Below, piece by piece: positions 23,891-56,988 of a stretch of 64,000 nt of DNA. Position 1 is the stretch's first letter. Each line of letters starts with the position of its first letter. The DNA is from Erysipelothrix sp. (GTDB lineage: Bacteria > Bacillota_I > Bacilli_A > Erysipelotrichales > Erysipelotrichaceae). The notes under the pieces are model-generated. The model was given only the letters and a program-made list of their open reading frames with translations, ran no database searches and was not told the origin of the DNA. A program made the position numbers and the translations under genes. The DNA lies in contig JAGXRX010000014.1 in assembly GCA_018335655.1 (NCBI GenBank), forward strand, positions 1 through 64,000, in the 5' to 3' direction.

Positions 23891-24054
23891 TTTAACATTT
23901 AGCCATGATTTATCATGGTTTTTTATTACCTTAAAAGTAGAACTATAGTTTTTAAAGAAACAGTGAATTATCATGTTATTAATGATTATCATTTCAAAGA
24001 AGGTTATTTCTTGGTCAAGAACAATAAGTGGTATAATCTTTTTAGGTGATCAAC

Positions 24055-25029
24055 ATGAAAGTATTATTGACGGGAGCAACTGGCAATGTTGGGTTTGAAA
24101 CTTTAAAGAAATTGATTGAACATAAACACGAGGTTACTGTTCTAGAAATTAAAAGTGCTAAAAATAAGAAGAAATTGAATCAATATAAAGATAAGATTTT
24201 CATCGTGTTTGGATCGGTAACTGATGAAAACTTAATTAGTGAACTAATCGTTGGTAAAGATGTGGTGATTCATTTGGCTGCAATTATTCCACCACTAGCA
24301 GATGTAAAACCAGAATTAGCAAGACAAACCAATGTTTTTGGAACGCTGAATATTGTTAATGCGATAAAGAAGCAAATTAAGAAACCTTTTTTAATATATT
24401 CATCATCAATTAGTGTTTATGGTGATCGTTTAGAAAATTATGGCATTCAAGTTGGGGACATGTTGAAACCTAGTTTTGGTGATCATTATGCTGAAACTAA
24501 AATTGAAGCTGAGAATATCATTTTAAACTCAAATATTGAATATACTATATTTAGATTAGGTGCAGTAATGGGTAATCCTAAAATTAATCCATTAATGTTT
24601 CATATGCCTTTAAAAACGAAATTAGAAATTGTAAGCAATGTCGATGTTGGTGAAGCTTTGGCAAAATCAATCAATCACATAGAGGATTTAAAAGGGCAAA
24701 TATTTTATCTTGGTGGTGGCGAAAAATGTCGAACAAGTTATCACGAATTTTTGGAAAATATGTTTAAAATATATGGTTTAAAAACTCGAGGTATAAACTT
24801 GGATGCGTTTGCATCTAACAATTTCCACTGTGGATATTATATCGATGGTCATAGATTGAACAATATTTTACACTTTCAAAATGATACGCTAATAACTTAC
24901 TATGAAAGATTGAAAAAAGAAACTCCTATTCACAAGAGATTTATAACTAATGTATTTAGTCAACCTATTCTTTATTATATGCAAAGAAAATCCATTTTCT
25001 TAAAACATGATAATGTGACTAGGAGATAA
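24055..25029 (+). CDS. NAD-dependent epimerase/dehydratase (SDR)
   Basis: MKVLLTGATGNVG; extended SDR features. Confidence 0.85.
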   Translation: MKVLLTGATGNVGFETLKKLIEHKHEVTVLEIKSAKNKKKLNQYKDKIFIVFGSVTDENLISELIVGKDVVIHLAAIIPPLADVKPELARQTNVFGTLNIVNAIKKQIKKPFLIYSSSISVYGDRLENYGIQVGDMLKPSFGDHYAETKIEAENIILNSNIEYTIFRLGAVMGNPKINPLMFHMPLKTKLEIVSNVDVGEALAKSINHIEDLKGQIFYLGGGEKCRTSYHEFLENMFKIYGLKTRGINLDAFASNNFHCGYYIDGHRLNNILHFQNDTLITYYERLKKETPIHKRFITNVFSQPILYYMQRKSIFLKHDNVTRR

Positions 25030-25153
25030 TCTTAGATTTCCATAAAATGAATCCTTTCAAATTAACCATGATTTATCATGGTTTTATATTACATTCAAAC
25101 ATATTTAGTCTTATGACGTTTAGAATGATAGAATAGATACAAGGACAGCAATT

Positions 25154-31363: not shown

Positions 31364-31428
31364 AACATGCCTTGCCTAGATACGCATGGTATAATAAACA
31401 TACTTAAGACGCTCTTGTGGAGGTGTGT

Positions 31429-32187
31429 ATGTATAAAACGTTAGTTAGTGATTATGATGGAACGCTTTTTATTAATAATATCGTTGAAGAGCGGGATGTG
31501 TCAGCCATTCGTACATTTAAAGAACATGGTCATCATTTTGGGATTGCAACTGGTCGTAGTTTAGGATCAATTCTGGAGCAAATTGCAAAGTTTAATATTC
31601 CTTTTGATTTTGTGATTGCGAATAATGGAGCAATCTCGATTGATTCTAAAGGGGTTATTCTTCATAAGACGATTGTTGATATGAATATTGTGCATGAAGT
31701 TTTAGCATCTTTAAGTAGTGATGGAATTCAGTTTTTTGGACTCAGTGATGGAATTAGTGTAGGGCTTCATGACACACTTAATAAAAATGTGGATGTGCAT
31801 GTGAATCAGATAAGTTTAGATGAGATTATGACTTCACAAGAAATTGTCGGGATGTATATTAAGTTTATTGATACACAATCTGCACTTAAGCATGCTGCTC
31901 AAATTAATAAGAAATATAAAGATAAACTTAAGGCATATTCTTTTTATGAGTATAATGATATTCTTTCACCTAATACTTCAAAAGCAACAGGGATTTTATC
32001 AGTTGCGAAAGCTTTGAATCTTCATGAGCGTATTCATACTGTAGGGGACTCATTTAATGATATTCCAATGACACGAATGTTCAAAGGATATGGCATATCT
32101 ACTGGAGAAGCTGTCCATATTAAGGAATCGTTTAAGGTGTGTAATAATGTGAGTGAAGTCATTGAGGATTTGTTAAAAAGTGATTGA
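31429..32187 (+). CDS. Cof-type HAD hydrolase
   Basis: LVSDYDGTLF; GDSFNDIPMTRMF. Confidence 0.88.
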   Translation: MYKTLVSDYDGTLFINNIVEERDVSAIRTFKEHGHHFGIATGRSLGSILEQIAKFNIPFDFVIANNGAISIDSKGVILHKTIVDMNIVHEVLASLSSDGIQFFGLSDGISVGLHDTLNKNVDVHVNQISLDEIMTSQEIVGMYIKFIDTQSALKHAAQINKKYKDKLKAYSFYEYNDILSPNTSKATGILSVAKALNLHERIHTVGDSFNDIPMTRMFKGYGISTGEAVHIKESFKVCNNVSEVIEDLLKSD

Positions 32188-32246
32188 TTAATGTTTGTGT
32201 ACTTGCTTAATGGTTTAGGAAAACAGGGTTTTTATTCTGATTAATA

Positions 32247-32273
32247 GGGGTTCGAGTCCCTTCATCCGCACCA
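32247..32273 (+). repeat. Isolated 27-nt tRNA-Leu 3' fragment (T-arm, acceptor, CCA)
   Basis: GGGGTTCGAGTCCCTTCATCCGCACCA identical to 32701-32727; no tRNA 5' part upstream. Confidence 0.9.
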
Positions 32274-32602
32274 ATTTAATATCGCATTGACGAGTACTTT
32301 GGTGTTTTTTATTTGTTCAAATAACTAAAGGAATTGTGCATGTTAATAGAACGTGCTCAAAAAAGTGATATTTTTGTGCACATAAATTAATCGGGAATTT
32401 TTTTTATTTATTACTTAATTAATTTGAATTATTTAAATCTTCTCTGGCAGACTTAAGTATTTTGACATATATTATTGTAAGCTTCTGCTGAATTATAAAA
32501 ATATAGAATGTTGAAAAATTTGAGTCATTGAACTCAATCTTGCGAGCATATTTAAAGAATGTTGTCATGTGAAAACAGTAGATTCAATTTTTCAAAAAGT
32601 GA

Positions 32603-32630
32603 TTGATAAATGAAATGAGTGTGCTATAAT
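32603..32630 (+). promoter_or_regulatory. Promoter for tRNA-Leu
   Basis: TTGATA, 16-nt spacer, TATAAT. Confidence 0.65.
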
Positions 32631-32642
32631 AATAAGGCACAT

Positions 32643-32727
32643 GCGGATGTGGCGAAATTGGCAGACGCACTAGACTTAGGATCTAGCGCCTTACGGCATG
32701 GGGGTTCGAGTCCCTTCATCCGCACCA
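32643..32727 (+). tRNA. tRNA-Leu(TAG)
   Basis: Class II tRNA with variable arm; loop ctTAGga; encoded CCA. Confidence 0.95.
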
Positions 32728-32740
32728 TTCTGATACAGAG

Positions 32741-32768
32741 ACCATGGGATCGAACCCATGGTTTTTTT
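32741..32768 (+). terminator. tRNA-Leu terminator, parental version of the dispersed repeat
   Basis: ACCATGGG atcgaa CCCATGGT TTTTTT. Confidence 0.85.
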
Positions 32769-33005
32769 GTTTTGCAAACATCATTAATTGAGTAATATAG
32801 AATGTGGAATAAGATATATTTGCATCTATAATACAATAACGTATAGTTGTTCAATTGAATAACGGAAACACTTTATACAAATCTGTTGAATGCAAAATTC
32901 ATGATGTCCAACTCATAGCAACTTACTTCATTTCAAATGCATCTTGTCATTAAATTAGAGAGTTTAAATGAGTTTAACCTATAATAAGTTCAAAGGAGTG
33001 ATTCT

Positions 33006-33452
33006 ATGAAACTCAAAACATTAATTGCCATGTTATCCATATTGCTTGTGCTCACCGGATGCTCAGCTGCCGCAGGAGATTTAAACAACTCAGAATTGGC
33101 GGATGGTGATCGCATGATGCCGGTATACTTAGAATTTGAGAATAGTGTTGTTACCGACCAGACTACACCGCTGAAGTTTACGATTAAAAACAATACCCAG
33201 AATGTATATACATACGGGTTGATGTTCACCTTATTTCAATATGACGGAGCTAAGTGGGTTGAAGTTGAAATGAAGGAAGAAATGTTCTTCATTATGATTG
33301 CTTACAATCTCAATCCAGGTCAAACTATTGAAGGTGGTTTGGACTTGTCATTCTTCTATAACGAACTTCCTAAAGGTTTCTATCGTTACGAGAAGAAAAT
33401 GATGTCCGAAGACGGTGATGTGCTTGCTTTCGGCGAATTTAATATCGAATAG
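33006..33452 (+). CDS. Lipoprotein with Ig-like fold (predicted)
   Basis: Lipobox VLTGCSAAAG; TPLKFTIKNNTQNVYTYGLMFTLFQYDGAKWVEV. Confidence 0.75.
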   Translation: MKLKTLIAMLSILLVLTGCSAAAGDLNNSELADGDRMMPVYLEFENSVVTDQTTPLKFTIKNNTQNVYTYGLMFTLFQYDGAKWVEVEMKEEMFFIMIAYNLNPGQTIEGGLDLSFFYNELPKGFYRYEKKMMSEDGDVLAFGEFNIE

Positions 33453-33456
33453 TCTT

Positions 33457-33476
33457 AAAGGGCGAAAGCCCTTTTC
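33457..33476 (+). terminator. Terminator
   Basis: AAAGGGC gaaa GCCCTTTT. Confidence 0.75.
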
Positions 33477-33605: not shown

Positions 33606-33885
33606 GCAACACTGTATTAGGCACTTGCTATGTTAGCACTATTCTAATAAACTAACCTATTCATGTCAATTTAGAATCTTTTCGATTAAAAAAGCAAACT
33701 CAATTGATTCAATAAAAACGAATATGATGGCATCTATTACTTATATCAAAGTTTTGTAAAGCCGGGTAAATGCCGGATAAATCTTATTAAAGATCTTTAG
33801 AGATCTATTGAAATTATGTTAGACTATATAAATGGAATCAAATAGATAGACATCTATTTGAATCTTTGTGCATATGTTGGGATAA

Positions 33886-33940
33886 CCTTCATCCGAACCA
33901 TTCTGAAACAGAGACCATGGGATCGAACCCATGTTTTTTT
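33886..33940 (+). repeat. tRNA-Leu-3'/terminator repeat, copy B
   Basis: CTTCATCCGAACCATTCTGAAACAGAGACCATGGGATCGAACCCATGTTTTTTT. Confidence 0.9.
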
Positions 33941-34176: not shown

Positions 34177-35937
34177 TTAAGATATTAATTTCATGAAAGC
34201 TCTAACAACGGCAGGATCAAAATGATGACCAGACTGATCTCTTAAGTATTGAAGAACATTTTCTTTCTCCCATGCTTTACGATAGTTTCTGTCACTTTTT
34301 TATGCATCATAAACATCCACTATCGCAAATATTCTAGCAGATAAAGGAATTGATTCATCCTTTAGTTGATTTGGGTAACCAGTTCCGTCCCATTTTTCAT
34401 GATGGCAGTAAGGAATGTCTACTGCATCACGCAAGTACTCAATTTGTGAAAGCATATTATAAGCATAGATTGGATGTTTTTTGATTTCATCAAATTCTTC
34501 ATCTGTAAGTTTGTCTGGTTTTAATAATACGGAGTCTGGTACACCAATTTTGCCAATATCGTGAAGAATTGCGCCATATTCAAACATCTTCATTTTCTTA
34601 GTTGGATATTTCATTTCTCTAGCAAGTTTTAATGCAAGTTTTGTGACTCTTTGAGAGTGTGCTTCGGTTTCATCATCTTTTAAAGATAGTGCGTGTGCCC
34701 ATCCTTTAATGGTTTCTTTATATGCACTATTAAGGTCAGCATAGGATTTTTCTAACTTATGCTCAAGTTTGGTTAGCTTTGTGATATCCATCATTGTACC
34801 AATGATTCTAGTAGAACAACTATCAACATAATCAATGTTACCAGTATCATAAATCCACTTCTCAGTGTGATTGTTTTTAGTTATAATTCTATAACGCAAA
34901 TGATAAGGTTTATTGTTTTTTATAATATTGTCGTGTGCTCTTAATACTCTTGATCTATCTTTTGGATGGATTAGATCCTCCCAAACACTCATCGGCTTTA
35001 TATCATTGTCACTTATCTCTAATATATCGTTTAATATCTTTGAACTATGACATGTATCTTTAATAAGATCAACTTTATAGACTCCCATTTTCGCATTGAT
35101 TTGAGCAGTTTCAAGAATATGGTTATTCTCTTCCAAATCTTGAATAAGTTTCCTTTCTTGAGTCAAATCAATTCCAGTCGATATGATTTCAATAAGATTT
35201 CCTTGATCATCAAAAACTCCATGTTCGGTCCATTTGACCCAAAATACATTATCATTATCATTTGATTTCTCAAACTTAAATATACTGGTTCTTTGTGGTG
35301 TTTCAACATCCAATGAGTTAAGCATATCAAGAATATCTTGATGTTGGTCTTCAGGGTAGAAGGTTAAATATTTTAAACCTATCAACTCTTCTTCTGATTT
35401 GTTTCTAAATTTACAATATGCTTTATTGACATAAAGTAAAGTAGTGTCTAATTTGGATCTACAAATCAGTTCATTCTGAGTATTTAATATATTATCCAGA
35501 TATACTTCTTGACTTTTCAACTTTAGTTCGGTTTCTTTTTCTTTTGTTACATCCCTAGCTCTAGTGAGATGACCAATAACTTGAGCATTTTCAGTTACTG
35601 GTTTTGTAAACGCATGAACCCAACGAATGTTACTTTCTTTGTCTTTGACTCTAAAGCATAAATCAAACTCCTGATTTTCTAAATAAGCATAATGAGCTTG
35701 CATAACTTTTTCTCTATCTTCATCCAGTATAAAATCTAAAAATGAAAATGGGTGATCATAAAGATATTTATTCGAACCACCAAGTATCTTTTCATATGCA
35801 GAAGAGGCATAAATAACCTTTGTAAAATCCAGATTGTGGTAATAAAAGGCTTCGCTATTGTCAAATTCTATCTCGTGCTTAATCTTATCAATAACTCTAT
35901 CTTTAGTTATCAATAAACTGTTAATTGCATTACTCAT
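34177..35937 (-). pseudogene. Multi-PAS + HD-GYP protein interrupted by in-frame TAA (34300-34302)
   Basis: Frame continues past stop: ARIFAIVDVYDA*KSDRNYRKAWEKENVLQYLRDQSGHHFDPAVVRAFMKLIS*, the expected HD-GYP C-terminus; start ATG 35937 with GGAGG RBS. Confidence 0.8.
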
Positions 35938-36290
35938 AAAAAGCCTCCATTCCCTATTTGCCGATAATAACACACTTGATTTTTCTAGCAAAAAACGTTC
36001 ACTCTACTTAATATTGTTAATTACATTATACTGATAGTTAACAATAAAAAAAAGTAATAATTTCAAGAACAAATAATACCTTTTCTATGGAAAATATTGA
36101 TTAAAATTAGGAAAGCTTACATTATAAATAGGAAAAATTTTCTTTGAATCCTTGACGACTTTAGTAACTTAAAGTATTTAGTACTCTACTGTTTAGGTTA
36201 TTATAATAGCAAGAAAACCTTCTTATTAGTGTATTATTTAGACTATTAGTGTGACTATTAGATATAAATGAAGTAGAAGAAATAGATTCT

Positions 36291-36347
36291 CTTCATTCGC
36301 ACCATTCTGATTCAGAGACCATGGAATCGAACCCATGGTTTTTTGTG
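36291..36347 (+). repeat. tRNA-Leu-3'/terminator repeat, copy C
   Basis: CTTCATTCGCACCATTCTGATTCAGAGACCATGGAATCGAACCCATGGTTTTTTG. Confidence 0.9.
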
Positions 36348-36530
36348 TTTGTAGAGATTAACCTTGTAAAGATTAGAATTCTTATGAAATCTTTCTAGAA
36401 TTATTACACTCTTTACTAACATCCTGCCTAATTAATGAATTTCTCATTACAGTACAAATACTTAATGAACATCTTAAAAAATGGGGTATGAATATATCAG
36501 CAACCACTTGATAAAATTTGCTTCATAAAG

Positions 36531-44418: not shown

Positions 44419-44475
44419 TCTGATATAGAGCGACAACACTGAGACCATGGGATTGAAACCATGGTTTTTTTGTGT
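44419..44475 (+). repeat. tRNA-Leu-3'/terminator repeat, copy D (terminator half)
   Basis: TTCTGATATAGAG...CTGAGACCATGGGATTGAAACCATGGTTTTTTTGTG. Confidence 0.8.
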
Positions 44476-44514
44476 TTTTTGTGGATGACTTGTTATTACA
44501 GTTTAAGAGTATGT

Positions 44515-44700: not shown

Positions 44701-45383
44701 CTTTGTGATCCCCTTTTTTTCATCTGCTTTAATATTTAATTGTAATCATTTCCCTATCTTTTATAAAAAAAAATTAGTACCATAACATAAAGTTTAATGA
44801 TTTATCATATGTTGCTTTTTAGCTGGTTAAATCATTTTTAAGCTCTGTCATTTGCTTTTCTCTATCTTGTGTTTATTCTTGTATGTGATCTAATTATAAT
44901 TGTGACATGGGTTGCAGTTAGTGATCTTGTGTAATCTCATCATTTATCCCATGATTTTGTAGCTCTCTATTTAACTATCTGTGTTTTGGCCTTTGCTAGA
45001 AACTATAGCATATCCTGGGTTCATAGGATTGTACATCTATGCAATATCTATACTCATGTATATACTGTGTTTGCATACCGTATATTCAAATTTTACACTT
45101 TTGTATCAATAAGTCAAAAAACTATTTAAACATTATTTTGTTTGTTTTGCACTTAAAGGAAATTTAATGGCTCATGATATTTCTATCAAGTAACTCTCTT
45201 AAAGTCAGAAATGGTGTATCGGAATTTTTCATAAAGAAAGATATATTAGAGGTACAACAGAAGTGTATCAAAATCTTTAAAACATACTGACAAATTCCTT
45301 CCATTTGTACTGAAAACAGCCTAATAATGTCATATTTTGACTATTTATCATATGTATGGACAATTATACTCAACACTTCAATT

Positions 45384-45443
45384 CTCTTCATCCACACCAT
45401 TCTGATACGTAGACTATGGGATCGAAACTATGGTTTTTTTGTG
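45384..45443 (+). repeat. tRNA-Leu-3'/terminator repeat, copy E
   Basis: CTCTTCATCCACACCATTCTGATACGTAGACTATGGGATCGAAACTATGGTTTTTTTGTG. Confidence 0.88.
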
Positions 45444-53984: not shown

Positions 53985-54041
53985 TTCTCTCATCCATACC
54001 TTTATGATATAGAAACCATAGGATCAAACCTATGGTTTTGT
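53985..54041 (+). repeat. tRNA-Leu-3'/terminator repeat, copy F
   Basis: TCTCTCATCCATACCTTTATGATATAGAAACCATAGGATCAAACCTATGGTTTTGTG; stem changed but re-paired. Confidence 0.75.
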
Positions 54042-54328
54042 GCTTTTATAATGTTTTATGGTAAGTGAAATGATGATATTTCATAAAGACTTGATGAGTG
54101 ACTTAAGCAAATTATTGTTAAATTAACAACTTGTATCACAATTAAATCAAAGAAATCATTCAATTCAAAACTCAGTTTAATCACTGAAATAACCAAATTA
54201 TATCAATTAACCCCAATTTGAATGCAATCACCCCAAAAACGGTTAAAGATACTAGATTTTGATAAAGTAGGGATTGTAAAAATGTGATGTTTTGCACAAA
54301 ATTTCAAAAAGGATGGAGGGTAAACCTA

Positions 54329-56899
54329 ATGAAATTGATGAGTGATATAAGTAAGCGATTTACAGTATTAATGATGGTATTTACAATGTTGGTGGGATTA
54401 GCTCAATTTGGAGTTTACTCACAAGCAGTCACAGTTCCAGAAACAGGAGTGACACAAACATTTGATTTATCAATTGGCAATGTAACGATTAACAGTCCTG
54501 GAACATATGTCATTACACAAAGTGTAGAAGGTGTTACTCGTAATACAATAATCATCAATAGTAATGCAACGGTTTATCTTAGTGGTGTTAATATTCAGGT
54601 TTTAAAGCCAGTTAGCAGAGATGACTACAGTAAACCAAATCCAATAAATATTAGTGGATCATTTACTGTGGATTTATATCTAGTTGATGGCTCTACAAAT
54701 ACACTTGCTTCTGAAGAGGGTACAATAGTTTCTGGGGGATGGATTAGAAATGGTAGTGGTAAGGCAGCACTTCGAGTTCCTGCTGGTGCAACACTTAATA
54801 TCTATGGTAGTAGTGGGGTATTACATGCCACTGGTGCACAAGGAAAGAATCATTACGATTATGCTGCTAGAGGTGGTGGGGGATCTGCCATTGGTGGTAA
54901 TGGAGGAATCAATAATAGTGGGGAACACTATTTTGAACCAGCTGAAGCCAGTGGACGTGTAAACATCTATGGTGGAACCATTGTAGCTTTAGGGGGAGCT
55001 GCAATGGGTCATCATGGACAAGGGGGTAATGCTATCGGTTCTGGTGGTTTGGAATATGATGGTGTACCAGTTGCAAATGGTGCTGTAAGCATATATGGAG
55101 GGAATGTATCTCTAACGGGTGGACTAGGCACGTGGAGTCAACGCTCTGGATATGCAGTTGCGGGAGATCTACATTACCATGGTGGTAAGCTAGTTGCTAA
55201 GTCAGCACCAGAGGGAAATACTCTTGTGTCACCACTAAGTAAAGCACCACTAACTACTCCAATTCAATATGCGTGGAGATTAAATGCAGTGGATGAATTG
55301 GAAGTGTCTTATGTTAGTGCATATACTTTTGAAAGTACTCAAAGATTTGTCGAATTACAAGAAGATTTCTCAGGTCCATACAATGTTAATGCAGCAAAAA
55401 CTGCAGCACAAAATGCAAGTTATTTGGATACAACACAAGCTATCGCAACTTCAGAAACAATCATTATTAATACACTAAAAGAGGTTGCAGAACTCGCGGT
55501 CAATAATGATGAAATTACAGTAAGTGTGAATAAAGTAACTTATGTATTACCAACTGCAGGGACATCTGCAAAACCATTAGGGACAGATGGAAGTTATGCT
55601 TTCACGATTACGCTAACTCATGGAGAATACATCCTAACCACAGATGAGTTAGCAATCGCAATTGTTGCGACAGCATTTGATGGAGTGAGTGATGTGGATG
55701 CAGTCGCAGCTGCAAAACTAGCTGCTCAAAATGCAAGTTATTTAGATACAACCCAAGCTGTGGCTATAACAGAAACAGTGATTAGGAATACTTTAAAAGT
55801 AGTTGCAGAATTAGCAATCAGTAATGAAAGTATTGCAGTTACAATAAATAGAATTAAGTATGTATTACCAATTGCAGGAACATCTGCAAATCCATTAGGA
55901 GTTGATGGAAGCTATACCTTCACAGTTACGGTGAGTAAAGGTGATGAAACCTTAACGAGTGATGAAGATAGTATTGCGATCATTGCCACTGCTTATGAAG
56001 GAGTGAGTGATGCTCATGCTGTAGCCACTGCAAAAGCAGCAGCAGAAGCTGCAAAGTATCTTGATACAACTCAAGCAATCGCAACCTCAGAAGACATCAT
56101 AAAAGATACATTAAAGGATATTGCACAATTAGCAGTTAATGATGAAGCGATTACTGTTAGTGTAAACATTATTTCCTATGTCTTACCAATAGAAGGAACA
56201 CCTTCAAATCCAACTGGGATTGATGGTAGTGTTACATTCACCATCACAGTAAGTAAAGGTGATCAAATTTTAACTACAGAAGAAATGATAATCATCATCA
56301 AAGCGACACATACGAAACTGTATAACCCAGATGTTATTGTCGAAAAAGATGAGAATGCTTTTGAGTTCGACGCATCAGGACTAGAACATGTCGTTATATT
56401 TAGTGATGAAGAAAGAGTTCATGAAGTGTTTGTTAAACTAGTATTCTCAGTATTAACAGGAATAAATGTTCCAACAGAAGATAAGAATCTCATCGATACT
56501 TTCATCAAGACTGTACTAAATTATAATAAGTCTGAAGTATTCTTAGTTGATATTTCACTTTTCAAAATGGTCGGTGAAACATCAACTCCAATCACTAATA
56601 CATTAGAAGAGGTAACCATTAGTTTCACTTTACCAGTTGCATTTAGAGGTGTGGAGTTTGATTTAATTCGTGTTCATGATGATGAAGTAGAAGTGATCGA
56701 GTATATCCTTGATGAAGAAACATATGTAATCACATTTACAAGTAATAAGTTTTCAACATTCTCACTTGTTTCCCAGTTAGAGGAAGAAATCGTCTTACCA
56801 GAAACATCAGATAGTTCAAAACTGTTTAATTGGTTATTGATGTTGCTAGGATTTGCACTACTAGCTGTAAGTGTAGGGTTTGATAAGAAGAGTGATTAG
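54329..56899 (+). CDS. Repeat-containing cell-surface protein with LPETSD sorting-like C-terminus
   Basis: Signal peptide; beta-helix-like Gly-rich N-half; three ~105-aa repeats; LPETSDSSKLFNWLLMLLGFALLAVSVGFDKKSD. Confidence 0.85.
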   Translation: MKLMSDISKRFTVLMMVFTMLVGLAQFGVYSQAVTVPETGVTQTFDLSIGNVTINSPGTYVITQSVEGVTRNTIIINSNATVYLSGVNIQVLKPVSRDDYSKPNPINISGSFTVDLYLVDGSTNTLASEEGTIVSGGWIRNGSGKAALRVPAGATLNIYGSSGVLHATGAQGKNHYDYAARGGGGSAIGGNGGINNSGEHYFEPAEASGRVNIYGGTIVALGGAAMGHHGQGGNAIGSGGLEYDGVPVANGAVSIYGGNVSLTGGLGTWSQRSGYAVAGDLHYHGGKLVAKSAPEGNTLVSPLSKAPLTTPIQYAWRLNAVDELEVSYVSAYTFESTQRFVELQEDFSGPYNVNAAKTAAQNASYLDTTQAIATSETIIINTLKEVAELAVNNDEITVSVNKVTYVLPTAGTSAKPLGTDGSYAFTITLTHGEYILTTDELAIAIVATAFDGVSDVDAVAAAKLAAQNASYLDTTQAVAITETVIRNTLKVVAELAISNESIAVTINRIKYVLPIAGTSANPLGVDGSYTFTVTVSKGDETLTSDEDSIAIIATAYEGVSDAHAVATAKAAAEAAKYLDTTQAIATSEDIIKDTLKDIAQLAVNDEAITVSVNIISYVLPIEGTPSNPTGIDGSVTFTITVSKGDQILTTEEMIIIIKATHTKLYNPDVIVEKDENAFEFDASGLEHVVIFSDEERVHEVFVKLVFSVLTGINVPTEDKNLIDTFIKTVLNYNKSEVFLVDISLFKMVGETSTPITNTLEEVTISFTLPVAFRGVEFDLIRVHDDEVEVIEYILDEETYVITFTSNKFSTFSLVSQLEEEIVLPETSDSSKLFNWLLMLLGFALLAVSVGFDKKSD
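55391..56310 (+). repeat. Three tandem ~315-bp repeats inside the surface-protein gene
   Basis: AA..A(A/E)(N/A)A(S/K)YLDTTQA(I/V)A..E.II..TLK..A.LA.. recurs from ~55391, ~55706 and ~56021. Confidence 0.88.
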
Positions 56900-56954: not shown

Positions 56955-56988
56955 GAGATTGAACCATAGGATAAAACCTATGGTTTTA
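56955..56988 (+). repeat. tRNA-Leu-3'/terminator repeat, copy G (terminator half, weakest)
   Basis: GAGATTGAACCATAGGATAAAACCTATGGTTTTAG; matches copy F stem. Confidence 0.5.

Follow-up and report, generated by a model that had tools for sequence, protein, structure and literature searches.

The question raised by this locus is why a 27-bp fragment of the tRNA-Leu(UAG) 3′ end lies upstream of the intact gene in a stretch of 64,000 nucleotides from an uncultured Erysipelotrichia MAG (hereafter the window). Exact copies of the 27-mer, GGGGTTCGAGTCCCTTCATCCGCACCA, are found on the + strand at 32247–32273 and 32701–32727, 454 bp apart from start to start and with a gap of 427 bp between them. Recurrence by chance is not expected (0.00, 100 dinucleotide shuffles), and no third copy within 3 mismatches was found in the window. 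Allowing one mismatch, the match between the copies reaches 30 nt (32244–32273). The perfect direct repeat bracketing ~450 bp that a preliminary description of this DNA had reported is thus borne out. The upstream copy consists of the T-arm, the 3′ acceptor and the CCA of tRNA-Leu, and its right edge falls exactly at the CCA. At 32247, neither a tRNA-like call by ARAGORN nor an Rfam match was obtained. When the 59 bp between the stop codon of the preceding HAD gene and the 27-mer were globally aligned with the tRNA promoter and body, the similarity was at the shuffled level (p = 0.68, 1000 shuffles); a decayed tRNA body or promoter in this position was therefore rejected, confirming that the copy stands without any tRNA body, as first described.

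The fragment lies in the spacer between a HAD-family hydrolase gene (Hydrolase_3, Pfam PF08282, E = 2e-26; 31417–32187, + strand) and the intact tRNA-Leu(UAG) (32643–32727, +; ARAGORN, Rfam RF00005). No other copy of this tRNA gene was found in the assembly; it is followed by a leader and hairpin terminator (ACCATGGGATCGAACCCATGGT plus a T-run; 32728–32767, +). The distance from the HAD stop codon to the tRNA is 455 bp in the window versus 36–37 bp, by gene coordinates, in the congeners G002, G004 and G005. The end of the HAD gene is present twice. The intact 3′ end (copy 1, 32168–32193, +) is 88% identical to 32587–32612, where HAD-end-like sequence with a stop codon appears again 35 bp 5′ of the tRNA, exactly the position it occupies in the congeners; this second copy leads into the functional tRNA promoter (TTGATA/TATAAT; 32587–32642, +). 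Local alignment of the HAD 3′ end with the region before copy 2 gave p = 0.002 (about 2 in 1000 shuffles), and 32587–32773 matches the HAD-end/tRNA/terminator segment of G002 and G005 at 92–93%. Sequence comparison thus supports a HAD-end duplication in the window, but a short one (~20–26 bp) that lies partly over the tRNA −35 region.

Between the upstream 27-mer and the second HAD end lies an AT-rich non-coding insert of 313 bp (32274–32586, +) for which 146 family genomes gave no homologue; a 399-bp query containing it matched only tRNA 3′ ends in these genomes, that is, by its 27-mer part. Neither an integrase nor an ORF of 100 aa or more was found in the 427 bp between the 27-mers. As sources of the insert, the left end of the G004 integrative element (p = 0.91), DNA from downstream of the tRNA (p = 0.05) and the cargo of G012 (p = 0.35), both genomes being described below, were not convincing. 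The upstream fragment was also sought in relatives, where a piece of a functional RNA might be conserved; it is absent from G002, G004 and G005.

The 3′ end of tRNA-Leu(UAG) is a genuine integration hotspot. Tyrosine integrases at this site in relatives, which the preliminary description had proposed to look for, are clear in G004. There, tRNA-Leu directly abuts element DNA (CCAT/GATTTAAATCAG). The tyrosine integrase encoded 200 bp past the tRNA is 386 aa long and contains Phage_integrase (PF00589) and Arm-DNA-bind_4 domains. The G004 attL keeps the tRNA body and the attR carries core plus terminator; the core common to both, TCCCTTCATCCGCACCAT, and the adjacent integrase identify the tRNA 3′ end as attB of this integrase. 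The two attachment sites lie on different contigs, the element spanning contig gaps and being itself unassembled, and the attR precedes the hydrogenase operon, which in the window follows the repeat copy at 36285. A 49-bp stretch repeated (90%) near both element ends suggests integrase arm sites. Integrases are also close to tRNA-Leu(UAG) in G139, G110 and G046, and coordinates suggest the same for G037 and G029. Among virus contigs, one from IMG/VR has the exact 27-mer at each end, which fits a circular genome sequenced beyond its starting point, with an integrase gene ending about 180 bp before the 27-mer. For most virus contigs carrying the 27-mer, the match is simply to an encoded tRNA-Leu gene.

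Several further genes were seen at this and a similar position. The G004 element contains apparent defence-type genes, an N6 methylase and an AbiEi-like antitoxin (L068:11045-11617, L069:14768-15397). AAA_14/DUF4143 ATPase genes directly follow tRNA-Leu in the congeners G005 and G002 (L067:14137-15414; L066:6983-8092), and a different member of this family follows tRNA-Leu in G012 (L071:8539-9729), a recurring cargo of the slot. Elsewhere in the window, the tRNA-Lys terminator (23899–23936) is repeated at 25062–25099 (89% over 38 nt) after an epimerase-like gene (24046–25029), perhaps marking a similar old insertion at tRNA-Lys.

Downstream of the window tRNA-Leu, its 3′ end, leader and terminator (CTTCATCCGCACCATTCTGATACAGAGACCATGGGATCGAACCCATGGTTTTTTT) are repeated on the strand of the tRNA (+). 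Three clear copies of core plus terminator were found at 33886–33940 (94.5%), 36285–36350 (91%; the hydrogenase operon comes next, as it does in G004) and 45377–45442 (86%), and a weaker one at 53990–54047 (79%). Terminator copies at 44438–44476 (90%, decayed core) and 56963–56987 (84%, terminator only) have no readable tRNA core and may be of other origin. The copies at 33886 and beyond are displaced 3′ fragments downstream of the tRNA in its orientation, the arrangement that the Islander method looks for. Identity is lower the farther a copy lies from the tRNA (Spearman rho −0.94, in a small sample of n = 6 copies of unequal lengths), the gradient to be expected if successive insertions at the tRNA had moved earlier ends outwards. 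A match of 82.6% over 270 bp between 33674–33939, including core and terminator, and the right end, core and terminator of G004 (attR flank, L069:14597-14328) makes it most likely that the 33886 copy is the attR of a G004-type element since lost; 33674–33885 (+) would then be the right end of such an element, with probable integrase arm-type repeats. No integrase gene was found in the downstream island of the window; one is present at the equivalent site of G004. A PAS/HD domain protein is encoded between the 33886 and 36285 copies (34300–35991, −), and an 871-aa ORF without a Pfam match (54284–56899) lies between those at 53990 and 56963. In the terminator hairpin 93.8% of cells pair; compensatory change measured as covariation was not above that in shuffles, so selection on the old terminators is not shown.

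These copies also bear on the age of the upstream fragment, which had been taken as the least decayed and so probably the most recent. The argument is weak, as it compares 0/27 differences with 3/55 in the 33886 copy, and at 5.5% divergence a 27-mer stays perfect with a probability of ~0.22. The two copies may be of similar age; that the 27-bp copy marks the most recent event is not established.

Directly after the tRNA, the window carries a Big_14 lipoprotein module (32911–33475, +; gene 33006–33452) that is 85% identical at the DNA level to that of G012, where it follows tRNA-Leu in genus g8. The lipoproteins (window 33006–33452 versus L071:9856-10302) are about 90% identical between the genera, the HAD proteins only 36%, and both modules occupy the same tRNA-Leu slot, which makes a recent lateral transfer between the genera likely. 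A remnant of the neighbouring g8 gene (MarR-like by sequence) follows the window module, and the block was probably acquired from g8 at the tRNA-Leu slot.

We found a parallel to the upstream fragment in G012, which belongs to another genus of the same family. Here the locus order is HAD gene, tRNA-Leu pseudogene, 3.9 kb of cargo (HD-domain and GGDEF genes), HAD 3′ end, promoter and intact tRNA-Leu. The pseudogene is broken in its −10 box, 5′ acceptor and anticodon stem; its last 36 nt are intact, followed by the junction CCA/AATTAG. The HAD 3′ end duplication is 115 bp long and 100% identical. A single working tRNA-Leu copy was found in G012, and both cores are intact. About a fifth of positions differ in the 5′ half of the pseudogene (L071:4206-4278) versus 0 in the HAD copies; this contrast between a decayed 5′ half and promoter and perfect HAD copies is not accounted for by simple neutral decay since the duplication. 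In the window and in G012 alike, copy-to-copy homology ends exactly at the CCA, where a junction formed at an integrase core would be expected to fall. The layout with the fragment upstream was found only in these two among 295 genomes of the order (MAGs, one genome per species), searched with a pattern that allowed one mismatch and that more decayed copies would escape. Two other species of the G012 genus (G083, G136) have the HAD gene, one tRNA and the lipoprotein, and further genomes gave a single core match. Two other candidates are not parallels: a T-arm-like stretch upstream of tRNA-Leu in G061 reads, by eye, as a tmRNA 3′ end, and in G152 two tRNA-Leu genes stand in tandem, both intact.

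When an element integrates into the 3′ end of a tRNA gene, the intact tRNA comes to lie upstream and the displaced 3′ fragment downstream. A 3′ fragment located upstream of the tDNA is explicitly rejected by the Islander method (PMC4383910). The 27-bp pair does combine an intact tDNA with a fragment in the same orientation, as that method expects; the fragment (32247) is nevertheless upstream of the tDNA (32643), where the method places it downstream (PMC4383910), and the interval is 427 bp with no integrase, where an integrase and a length of at least 2 kb are called for. Because the fragment is upstream and the HAD gene end is duplicated too, a plain attL/attR pair does not produce this layout. 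The two 27-mers do not form a simple att pair, and the att geometry that the preliminary description had read into the repeat is not supported; the alternative it had named, a partial tRNA duplication, fits. That the 27-mers are nonetheless attL and attR of one element, later deleted internally, would agree with the use of the site as an integrase target in relatives, with the identity of the 27-mer to the T-arm/acceptor core and with the existence of a virus contig carrying the exact core. We consider this scar unlikely, given the side on which the fragment lies (PMC4383910) and an upstream copy that has neither tRNA body nor terminator, where the G004 attL has the body and the attR core plus terminator; the duplicated HAD end would also be left unaccounted for.

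The flanks of the upstream copy, unlike the tRNA on the left and unlike the terminator on the right, might instead indicate an attP-like junction, in which the 27-mer has element DNA on both sides and derives from mostly deleted tandem elements (attL-E-attP-E-attR) or from an element inserted in the HAD end. The IMG/VR virus contig has such an attP; however, no element gene is left in the window, neither flank matches known element ends and the second HAD end is not explained by such a junction itself, so that this origin seems improbable. A fragment that ends exactly at the CCA, a short insert and a short HAD-end duplication could all result from illegitimate insertion, in which error-prone repair copied a tRNA 3′ fragment or short chromosomal piece into the spacer and duplicated a short target, no integrase being involved. 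This is very unlikely at a locus that is an integrase hotspot and in view of the independent occurrence of the same layout in G012, where the HAD-end duplication is long and perfect.

On balance, we favour the reading that the 27-bp fragment is probably the degraded upstream member of a duplicated segment, [HAD-gene 3′ end – promoter – tRNA-Leu(UAG)], with the junction exactly at the tRNA 3′ end. As we infer the course of events and the recombination behind it, an element would have sat in the tRNA 3′ end, using the tyrosine-integrase core of the hotspot. Either a circle carrying the HAD end and the tRNA, formed by aberrant excision, would then have integrated at the tRNA core, or a tandem duplication of the segment would have arisen while the element was present. 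The product would be HAD-tRNA1-core followed by element DNA-HAD end-tRNA2-terminator, from which the element DNA would have been lost except for ~313 bp. The redundant tRNA1 would have shed its promoter and 5′ part, and tRNA2 would have stayed functional. Since nothing of a tRNA promoter or body is recognizable in the 59 bp before the 27-mer, the 5′ part of the upstream copy must on this duplication reading have been deleted or replaced. Against the duplication stand the short extent of the duplicated HAD end (~20–26 bp), part of it over the tRNA promoter, where selection could hold it; the 313-bp insert, which is like no known element end; the lack of an integrase in this segment of the window; and the restriction of the layout to two cases among 295 genomes of the order.

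A further step beyond the duplication, which we regard as a long shot, is that elements at this site relocate the only tRNA-Leu(UAG) of the host, the native copy being dead save for its core and the working copy standing in the far end of the insert. Clean excision between the cores would leave a dead tRNA gene, and such an insert could therefore hardly be lost again (a tRNA hostage). In G012 this layout exists at present, and the window would be a late, stripped-down stage.

Functional tRNA genes are the integration sites of actinomycete elements such as pSAM2 and SLP1. We offer as a lead a likeness to these elements in site-specific integration at a tRNA gene and restoration of the tRNA; unlike in them, plasmid or transfer functions were not found at the window locus. 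The use of the tRNA-Leu 3′ end as core resembles tRNA-targeted islands of the T-stem/acceptor (J) class and their tandem arrays (Islander; Williams), and the adjacent tyrosine integrase of G004 and the several displaced 3′ ends, in one orientation and one row, resemble Islander-type islands. In contrast to the latter, the window fragment is upstream, less than 2 kb away and separated by no integrase, and would be rejected by the filters (PMC4383910). Islands of acquired gene blocks with repeated tRNA 3′ ends are also similar, whereas the window repeats include the tRNA terminator, decay with distance and have one copy upstream. As in the tycheposons of Prochlorococcus (PMC10872708), cargo modules adjoin the tRNA, and a tyrosine recombinase is present at the site in a relative; none of the tycheposon hallmark genes was noticed here.

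A 3′ fragment upstream with the tRNA on the far side is a configuration that standard island finders drop. The locus records a tRNA-Leu(UAG) hotspot in uncultured Erysipelotrichia, with displaced tRNA ends lined up from younger to older. If the relocation of the tRNA into the insert were true, it would provide a simple route by which inserted DNA becomes indispensable.
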